Below, piece after piece: positions 21,933 to 23,356 of a DNA stretch of 23,538 nucleotides; position 1 is the stretch's first letter; each line of letters opens with the position of its first letter. Source of the stretch: a virus; the IMG/VR virus record IMGVR_UViG_3300025711_000028, positions 1-23,538 of that record; one strand, 5' to 3'. A model generated the notes under the pieces. That model saw nothing but the letters and a program-made list of their open reading frames with translations. It was not told the origin of the DNA and made no database searches. Both the position numbers and the translations under genes were made by a program.

Positions 21933-22047
21933 CGGGTAGCGCTCCAGCATTCGATTTAGGTGAGATAAGCGAAGCAGCACGCTCTCGGGCAATGCTGAGC
22001 CACTTAGCAGCTCTCGCTCGGCGGGCAGCGCATCCAGAACAGGCCAT
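21886..22047 (-). CDS. Small CxxC protein overlapping the holin stop
   Basis: A 53-residue open frame whose ATG overlaps the holin stop (TGATG). It begins MACSGCAARRARAAKWLSI, with a CxxC pair, an Arg-rich helix and a loose Gly/Ser/Pro tail. AAGG three bases before the ATG plus overlap suggest coupled translation after the holin. Small CxxC-RR proteins of this kind are often found beside lysis or terminase genes of phages, but no function is known to me. It could also be a chance frame: it is short, overlaps HNH by 47 bases, and its end lies in high-G+C sequence. Confidence 0.5.
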   Translation of the reverse strand: MACSGCAARRARAAKWLSIARERAASLISPKSNAGALPDGKAEDAGKQGSNPS

Positions 22048-22370
22048 CAGCCTTCAACCTTCCGAGCTGCTGCTCGATCGTAGTAACCGCGCACCTTCTC
22101 TACGCCGAGAAAGCCGACGGCACCGCCAGCAAACGTGGCCATGCTTTGCGGTAAGCCCATCCATTCAAGGAGTGGCACCAACGACAGCGTGACCAGGCCG
22201 CACAGCGCACCTTCCAGATACATCTGACGACGAGTACCGCCGCCGTACATCACTCGCAGCACAGCGATACCGACCGACAGGCCAGCGGCATAGAGCTGGG
22301 GTTGATGCAGTAGCAGCCAGGCAATCATTGCGGCCCACAGACCGGGATCCTTCTCAGGCATGTTTGGCAT
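22047..22370 (-). CDS. Holin, lambda S family
   Basis: A 107-residue holin like lambda S (107 codons). It starts MPNMPEKDPGLWAAMIAWLL against lambda MKMPEKHDLLAAIL, and has three hydrophobic stretches near residues 10-27, 27-44 and 50-72 with a GGAVGFLGVEKV segment that fits the family's third helix. The tail is basic. Two in-frame Met codons at 1 and 4 recall the dual start of lambda S (antiholin S107, holin S105), but residues 2-3 are Pro-Asn and the Lys2 that lambda needs is absent. GGGAGG lies about eight bases before the first ATG. Its leader can fold over that site, and a stop-start overlap links it to the next gene. Confidence 0.88.
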   Translation of the reverse strand: MPNMPEKDPGLWAAMIAWLLLHQPQLYAAGLSVGIAVLRVMYGGGTRRQMYLEGALCGLVTLSLVPLLEWMGLPQSMATFAGGAVGFLGVEKVRGYYDRAAARKVEG

Positions 22371-22378
22371 CTCGATTC

Positions 22379-22454
22379 CTCCCTTTAGGGGAGTGCAATA
22401 GGTTCGGCTCCAACGGCACTCCCGGCTCAGAGCGATGGGTGTGGTGGAGCCGAA
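22379..22454 (-). promoter_or_regulatory. Structured leader before the holin, competing hairpins
   Basis: Read on the transcript, four complementary pairs compete. State A: TTCGGCTCCA (22454-22445) with TGGAGCCGAA (22412-22403), and CTCCC (22393-22389) with GGGAG (22383-22379), the second covering the ribosome-binding site GGGAGG. State B: CGGCTC (22452-22447) with GAGCCG (22428-22423), and GGGAGTGC (22423-22416) with GCACTCCC (22396-22389), which would leave the site open. A pseudoknot joining the 10-bp and 8-bp stems is also possible. The pairings are exact in the sequence; the switch itself is inferred and stabilities were not calculated. Confidence 0.5.
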
Positions 22455-22458
22455 AACG

Positions 22459-22484
22459 AAAAAGCCCCAACGAATGCCAGGGCC
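22459..22484 (-). terminator. Weak second terminator before the holin leader
   Basis: Minus-strand GGCCC (22484-22480) pairs with GGGGCT (22468-22463) through four GC pairs and a wobble, with a loop of about 12 bases, then TTTTTCG. Weaker than the others; placed in tandem after the 22503-22520 terminator. Confidence 0.4.
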
Positions 22485-22487
22485 TCA

Positions 22488-22520
22488 AAACAAAAATAAA
22501 AAGCCCCGCATGCGCGGGGC
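22488..22520 (-). terminator. Intrinsic terminator after the DUF2513 gene
   Basis: Minus-strand GCCCCGC and GCGGGGC arms (22520-22514 and 22509-22503) form a seven-pair GC stem around a GCAT loop, followed by a T-rich run (TTTTTATTTTTGTTTT). Confidence 0.88.
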
Positions 22521-22540
22521 CCATAAACAGAAATTTTGTA

Positions 22541-22822
22541 TTAACGATACTTCGAAGGGCTGCTTCTTATCTCGTCAAGCAGGTCGTGCCCTTGCCACGT
22601 CAGGCCTTTGATGCTCGGGCCAATGCCAAAGCTTGCAGTCAGAAAACCTGTGTCCGCTAGTAGATTCAGGTGATAGCGAAGTACTTCGGTCTCTTCATCC
22701 TTCTTGTAGTTCCCATCAACCATATGCTCCGGGAACACAGCACTGAATGAAGCTCCGTTTAACGTAGTCCTTGCCTCAGTTCTCTCTAGTATTTCCTTGA
22801 TTACTGCCCAATCCCTAACCAT
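22541..22822 (-). CDS. DUF2513 family protein
   Basis: A 93-residue protein matching the DUF2513 family: MVRDWAVIKEILERTE at the start, TEVLRYHLNLLADTGFL in the middle, and a GLTWQGHDLLDEIRSS end. The shape (winged helix-like, with HxxLLxxxGFL and LTWxGHDLLD) suggests DNA binding, but no function is established. It lies between two terminators, directly after the candidate late promoter. The ribosome-binding site is weak (AGGT nine bases before the ATG), and the first codons can pair with the leader upstream (10-bp inverted repeat). In other phages the family occurs at varied places, so it could be a cargo gene. Confidence 0.8.
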   Translation of the reverse strand: MVRDWAVIKEILERTEARTTLNGASFSAVFPEHMVDGNYKKDEETEVLRYHLNLLADTGFLTASFGIGPSIKGLTWQGHDLLDEIRSSPSKYR

Positions 22823-22922: not shown

Positions 22923-22948
22923 AAAAAGCCCATCTCGGAGACGGGCTT
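22923..22948 (-). terminator. tR'-like terminator below the late promoter
   Basis: Minus-strand AAGCCCGTCT (22948-22939) pairs with AGATGGGCTT (22935-22926) in a ten-pair stem with one G-U wobble and a three-base loop, followed by TTTTTGC. It lies about 23 bases after the expected start site of the late promoter, the place tR' has below pR' in lambda. Confidence 0.85.
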
Positions 22949-22977
22949 TGCACGCGGAAAAACCGCAAAGTAACTGA

Positions 22978-23006
22978 AATCTATAGTTCGTCCCCGGCCT
23001 TGTCAA
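22978..23006 (-). promoter_or_regulatory. Candidate late promoter (pR'-like)
   Basis: A consensus -35 TTGACA (23006-23001) and a -10 TAGATT (22983-22978) with an ideal 17-base spacer. The -35 box contains the Q stop codon. The start site is expected near 22971. A TACTTT just after that point could act as the -10-like pause element used by Q proteins, but this is a guess. It is followed by a strong terminator, so long transcripts would need Q. Confidence 0.72.
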
Positions 23007-23356
23007 GCAGCCTCGCGCCGAAAATCGAGCGCGCCATCAATCCAGGCAATGCCCGCCTTCCAGAGCTGCCGAGTCTTCTCTTCACCGAAGCCCATCTTCT
23101 TGCCGACATCGATCAGCGCCTTGTCGCGAGCGGTGTAGTACTTCATCAGCACCTTGCCGCATTCCGGGTACCGCTTCAGCAGGCGACCCATCAAGCCGTC
23201 AATCATCAGCGCATCGTCGTCGGTGATCATCGGCGTGTGCAGCGTGTTCTCACGGGATGCACAGCACGACACGCCGGACCCCAGCACGACCCAACGGCCC
23301 CAATGCTCCAGCAAATCCTCGGCGGTGCGCTCGGTGAAGCTCTTCGTTCTCGCCAT
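23003..23356 (-). CDS. Q: Late antitermination protein Q
   Basis: A 117-residue protein that fits the phage antitermination Q family (the phage 82 / DUF1133-like type). The EHWGRWV segment near residues 15-21, the LGSGVSCCASRE stretch, and a helix-turn-helix-like block MKYYTARDKALIDVGKKMGFGEEKTRQLWKAGIAWIDG at about 70-107 are visible. Q binds DNA at the late promoter and modifies RNA polymerase so that it ignores terminators. Its stop codon lies inside the -35 box of that promoter, and a strong terminator follows, exactly the context expected for Q. The ATG lies two bases after the upstream stop. Confidence 0.85.
   Translation of the reverse strand: MARTKSFTERTAEDLLEHWGRWVVLGSGVSCCASRENTLHTPMITDDDALMIDGLMGRLLKRYPECGKVLMKYYTARDKALIDVGKKMGFGEEKTRQLWKAGIAWIDGALDFRREAA

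Follow-up and report, generated by a model that had tools for sequence, protein, structure and literature searches.

The locus in front of this holin gene raises the question of whether its RNA leader can alternate between a closed and an open ribosome-binding site, and thereby govern when the holin is made. The window, by which we mean the whole analysed stretch of 23,538 nucleotides (IMG/VR virus record IMGVR_UViG_3300025711_000028), carries the following features around this leader, all with positions in the window.

22047 to 22370, minus strand: holin of the lambda S family, 107 aa, beginning MPNMPEKD... (phrog_126, E 3e-39).
22379 to 22393, minus strand: ribosome-binding-site (RBS) hairpin CTCCC (22393-22389)-CTAAA-GGGAG (22383-22379), identified by fold and conservation.
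22397 to 22457, minus strand: post-terminator late-leader RNA element (cmsearch, 87.6 bits).
22461 to 22486, minus strand: intrinsic terminator directly 5' of the element, with a U-tract that extends into the element; its position is kept in relatives.
22501 to 22522, minus strand: second intrinsic terminator.
22541 to 22822, minus strand: small moron-like gene (DUF2513, phrog_585) between Q and the late operon, with terminators on either side.
22925 to 22949, minus strand: intrinsic terminator just 3' of Q, in a tR'-like position, its function assigned by analogy with lambda.
22978 to 23006, minus strand: sigma-70-like promoter TTGACA-17-TAGATT, a candidate late promoter by consensus match only, overlapping the end of Q.
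23003 to 23356, minus strand: Q-like antitermination protein, 117 aa (phrog_79, E 5e-23; Pfam PF06530, E 4e-9).

With the Q-like gene, the promoter, and the terminators lying upstream of the holin leader, and with HNH endonuclease, terminase, portal, and capsid genes following downstream, the leader is placed at the head of the late operon. Here, the first-pass annotation had described segments that cannot all pair at once, one set closing the ribosome-binding site and the other keeping it open, and these complementary segments do exist, on the minus strand and 5' of the holin open reading frame (22370-22047), as follows.

22393-22389 with 22383-22379, minus strand: anti-Shine-Dalgarno (anti-SD) arm CTCCC with GGGAG.
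22454-22445 with 22412-22403, minus strand: outer stem, TTCGGCTCCA with TGGAGCCGAA.
22452-22447 with 22428-22423, minus strand: alternative helix, CGGCTC with GAGCCG.
22423-22416 with 22396-22389, minus strand: alternative helix, GGGAGTGC with GCACTCCC.

The predicted fold of the leader is a long hairpin and then a short hairpin over the Shine-Dalgarno (SD) GGGAG. Because this 76-nt fold (-32.1 kcal/mol) is more stable than that of dinucleotide shuffles (mean -20.7 kcal/mol, z -3.96, with none of 200 as stable), the structure of the leader exceeds chance. The alternative set of pairings is another matter, and is no more than chance. In fact, the upstream hairpin contains one GGGAG-type sequence and the SD is another, so that a pairing of the hairpin copy with the anti-SD arm is an automatic consequence.

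For the leader to work as a two-state device, the upstream hairpin would have to open, so that the GGGAGTGC strand captures the anti-SD arm and frees the ribosome-binding site, with holin output then hanging on folding kinetics. Its complementarities are present, pairing of GGGAGTGC with GCACTCCC is possible in 93.9% of the cells among 39 close relatives, and while the window's RNA is being made, CGGCTC/GAGCCG gives the most stable fold at lengths of about 36-46 nt, so that a brief folding intermediate is possible. However, the two-helix alternative, with pair probabilities of zero, reaches only -19.9 kcal/mol, or 13.9 weaker than the -33.8 kcal/mol of the closed state (state A), while the best fold forced to hold GGGAGTGC/GCACTCCC (-27.7 kcal/mol) lies 6.1 kcal/mol above state A and has an ensemble probability of 0.0. 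Moreover, the element hairpin forms by about 52-58 nt, ahead of the synthesis of the anti-SD arm. Conservation also speaks against the open state. In the 72-member set, CGGCTC/GAGCCG shows no compensatory changes and has one pair broken in 28 sequences and another in 14, and GGGAGTGC/GCACTCCC likewise shows none across relatives, as opposed to 41 double changes for state A. The GGGAGTGC strand is kept before unrelated genes that have no CTCCC partner, and the match between the element and the anti-SD arm is no better within 81 leaders (-12.62) than when permuted (-12.66).

We thus found neither comparable stability or kinetic access of the two states nor compensatory conservation of both pairing sets. 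On folding, one state is far more stable with no competition, the very outcome that the first-pass annotation had set against its own proposal; with the weaker fold, the missing compensation, the element kept without an anti-SD partner, and the lack of matching within leaders, its second, open state finds no support, and we regard such a switch as highly improbable. A C precedes the anti-SD arm more often in phrog_126 leaders with the element (55 of 85) than in those lacking it (27 of 69; Fisher p 0.002, phylogeny ignored), and this C lengthens the possible alternative helix, though we think that its excess stems from shared ancestry or joint transfer. Very probably, then, the leader consists of two independent RNA parts that stand side by side without a switch.

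The first of these parts is the 5-bp RBS hairpin, which occludes the SD GGGAGG (22383-22378). In the window, its pairs have a probability of about 0.95, with the SD being unpaired at only 0.01-0.04. The closing of the holin ribosome-binding site by a leader structure was thereby borne out, and it is strongly conserved, as the mean unpaired probability of the SD in the leaders of 154 relatives is 0.12, in comparison with 0.33 when the upstream letters are shuffled (values near 0.6 are found in two other first-gene families, phrog_2359 and phrog_2658). Among these 154 relatives, the loop differs in both length and sequence, and some stems have been rebuilt (TCCTC/GAGGA and CCCTC/GAGGG). The hairpin is kept with or without the upstream element (about 150 relatives), and is almost always present in 105 loci that were found via the holin protein.

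The holin itself matches NCBIfam TIGR01594 (E 3.5e-27, 94.7 bits against a cut-off of 55, residues 4-106 on profile positions 1-104) and Pfam PF05106 (E 5e-31). It has in-frame ATG codons at 22370 (Met1) and 22361 (Met4), and the TIGR01594 profile alignment starts at Met4. A dual start, usually of the MxxMP[DE]K type, recurs in 149 of 156 holin relatives. The two starts are usually two residues apart, with an extension that as a rule has no charge (PN in 92 of the 149), lysine-containing versions being rare. Membership of the lambda S family and the dual-start N-terminus make the earlier comparison with lambda S an apt one. A positive charge contributed by the longer form was nonetheless absent in the window, where the extension is PN. 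By inference, the RBS hairpin would limit initiation at Met1, acting over the first SD as a fixed brake on translation from this codon. As with the sdi structure of lambda, the ratio of Met1 to Met4 is probably set by this hairpin, which may bias it toward Met4.

The second part is the element of about 60 nt. It is composed of the outer stem (22454-22445/22412-22403), an inner stem (CACACCC/GGGAGTG) with an A.A mismatch, and an apical part with a 2-nt bulge (TC, 22435-22434) and a GC-clamped 5-nt loop (22431-22427), and the sequence of this apical part, bulge and loop included, is conserved. Among 72 diverse members, 95.1% of the stem cells are paired and 41 cells are doubly changed, a count that none of 500 shuffles reached (mean 8.2), although this control is subject to the relatedness of the sequences; in slid controls, both pairing and score collapse. 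Six stem pairs show compensation, for instance UA/UG/CG, GC/GU/AU, and AU/GU/GC. In the outer stem of a larger, sequence-aligned set, G-U occurs in 198 cells and A-C in 29, and because G-U is so far above A-C, the element appears to be selected as sense RNA rather than as DNA. A promoter or DNA operator was also considered and set aside, since no consistent -10/-35 could be seen by eye and the strand asymmetry favours RNA. In Rfam, the element itself has no matching family even at E 5 (weak matches nearby are to the terminators and fall below gathering scores), and the open-access literature that we searched gave no account of an element of this kind. As far as could be checked, and with no counterpart that we could find in Rfam, it is an undescribed hairpin RNA.

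The element is tied to what precedes it, and its link to what follows is loose. In 206 of 216 unique contexts, a terminator stands directly 5' of the element, as opposed to 6.3% of random positions, and the spacing between the two is near-constant; in contrast, the next start codon lies at no fixed distance. The first gene after the element in these 216 contexts is a phrog_126 holin in 116, a phrog_2359 holin in 41, phrog_2658 in 12, and phrog_34293 in eight, with others including extra genes. In single cases judged by eye, a tRNA-like sequence (L269) or an opposite-strand gene (L190, L240, and L279) follows, and phage phiAH14a has the element before a different holin, one without the CTCCC/GGGAG hairpin. 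About half of the 105 loci found via the holin protein have the element; from the others it is cleanly missing, often with the terminator abutting the RBS hairpin.

Using model R1, we found matches only in Pseudomonas and its phages, specifically in 79 of the 299 genomes from this genus (a few of these being judged chance), and none beyond the reference genome in 368 other Gammaproteobacteria. Weak model matches in IS-like coding DNA (L274, L275, L326, and L327) and in other apparently coding DNA (L309-L312) were dismissed as chance. The element accompanies three late-regulator families (phrog_79, phrog_3412, and phrog_3373), and a bond to one Q type was rejected on that account; the raw association in holin loci was 28/17 for phrog_79 and 11/24 for phrog_3412 (p 0.008, relatedness ignored). 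As for phrog_3412 (L004:810-1496) and phrog_3373 (L190:348-1064), which are listed without a function, these hold the Q position and may be late regulators.

Several loci depart from the usual arrangement. In L139, L141, L228, L290, and L294, there is no obvious terminator, and a different upstream sequence, which for the most part is similar among these loci, meets the element at TTTCGG, a junction that shows the element's sharp 5' boundary. Two copies are found in one phage (L144 and L190; also L300), where they frame additional moron-like genes that lie after the late regulator and before the lysis genes. Another hairpin class takes the same post-terminator position (L271:2523-2588, L272:1382-1447, and L273:2467-2532, all minus strand), and shares its flanks (CGTTTTCGGCC...GGCCGAACCTATT) with the element, but has a different inner stem and a similar apical loop (UUUGCUCYGMGC).

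The element has sharp junctions at either end and neighbours that vary, and in some phages two copies surround extra genes, all of which would suit a DNA-level boundary, that is, a recombination sequence for the exchange of moron and lysis genes that has no function as RNA. Yet recombination homology needs neither an excess of G-U over A-C nor helix covariation on one strand, and given this strand-specific covariation, a pure recombination boundary becomes less likely, to the point that we consider it improbable.

Taken together, the coupling to a terminator, the independence from the downstream gene, and the conserved loop lead us to propose that the element marks the read-through transcript via a bound factor. 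It would be transcribed only after polymerase has read through the upstream terminator, and a factor from the host, or a small one from the phage, is most likely brought by the conserved bulge and pentaloop to this late transcript or to the polymerase making it. The bound factor would then mark the late transcript for processive transcription, or for processing or stability, roles that we hold to be about equally likely. Most likely, the element is thus a late-transcript tag that is read through its conserved apical loop. More specifically, and only tentatively, we suggest that Pseudomonas phages have a class of cis-acting RNA not described before, which is recognised via the bulge and pentaloop and acts after read-through on the late-operon polymerase or transcript together with several unrelated late regulators. 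No phage protein was found to track the element by gene content between 17 contigs with it and 12 without it, a comparison that very small or fast-evolving proteins would escape; the families enriched in contigs with the element reached at most 12 of 17, and those absent from all 12 contigs lacking it at most 10 of 17.

Two narrower accounts each seem possible but rather doubtful. One would have the element act in cis to render polymerase resistant to termination or pausing over the late operon, like HK022 put, which suppresses termination with no need of a phage protein, or like a nut site for a small factor. This agrees with the conserved apical loop and bulge, with its location after Q-type regulators where the late operon begins, with its persistence before a tRNA-like sequence or an opposite-strand gene, and with the lack of a tie to any one downstream ribosome-binding site. 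It fits less well that the element sits 3', and not 5', of its coupled terminator, that it is a single hairpin as opposed to the two stem-loops of put (PMC9378689), and that a terminator lies within about 120 nt downstream in merely 24 of 216 contexts, little above the 6.7% at random. This same count, being near background, led us to reject the element as an attenuator of a second terminator. The other account, which we rate no higher, makes the element a signal for mRNA processing or stability, whereby the U-rich linker is cleaved and the late mRNA then starts with a stable hairpin. While the single-stranded, U-rich linker between two hairpins, the near-constant terminator spacing, and the independence from the downstream gene are all consistent with this, it leaves the sequence conservation of the apical loop unexplained.

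What emerges is a covarying late-leader RNA, not in Rfam, present in the phages that about a quarter of the sampled Pseudomonas genomes carry. The element offers a defined 60-nt target for studying what happens to late transcripts once Q-type read-through has taken place. In Pseudomonas phages, dual-start holins of this family generally have a leader hairpin over the first SD, which widens the lambda S story and makes a role in lysis timing testable outside E. coli.

Among known systems, lambda S shares with the window's holin its family (TIGR01594, PF05106), two nearby in-frame starts, and a small hairpin in the ribosome-binding region. In lambda, this leader hairpin (sdi) influences start choice, and the longer form, S107, adds a lysine, whereas the two-residue extension here is usually uncharged. 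As in the Q-dependent late operons of lambdoid phages, with their intrinsic terminator at tR', a Q-type gene, a candidate late promoter, and a terminator precede the late genes here. We know of no conserved hairpin element after tR' in lambda, and none follows the terminators of the P. aeruginosa phages D3, LC3I3, and U7; in D3 (53293-53400, L332) and LC3I3 (L330), a like terminator is succeeded by tRNA genes or other sequence.

The put RNA of HK022 is about 70 nt in length, forms two stem-loops, and lies near the early promoters (PMC9378689). Unlike put, the element is one conserved hairpin that comes after a terminator in late leaders, and the two stem-loops of a put-like RNA were not found, as the second hairpin is missing when another gene follows the element. 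Like put, however, the element is a structured phage RNA that stands first in a long transcription unit, and in which the sequence of the unpaired bases is conserved (PMC9378689).
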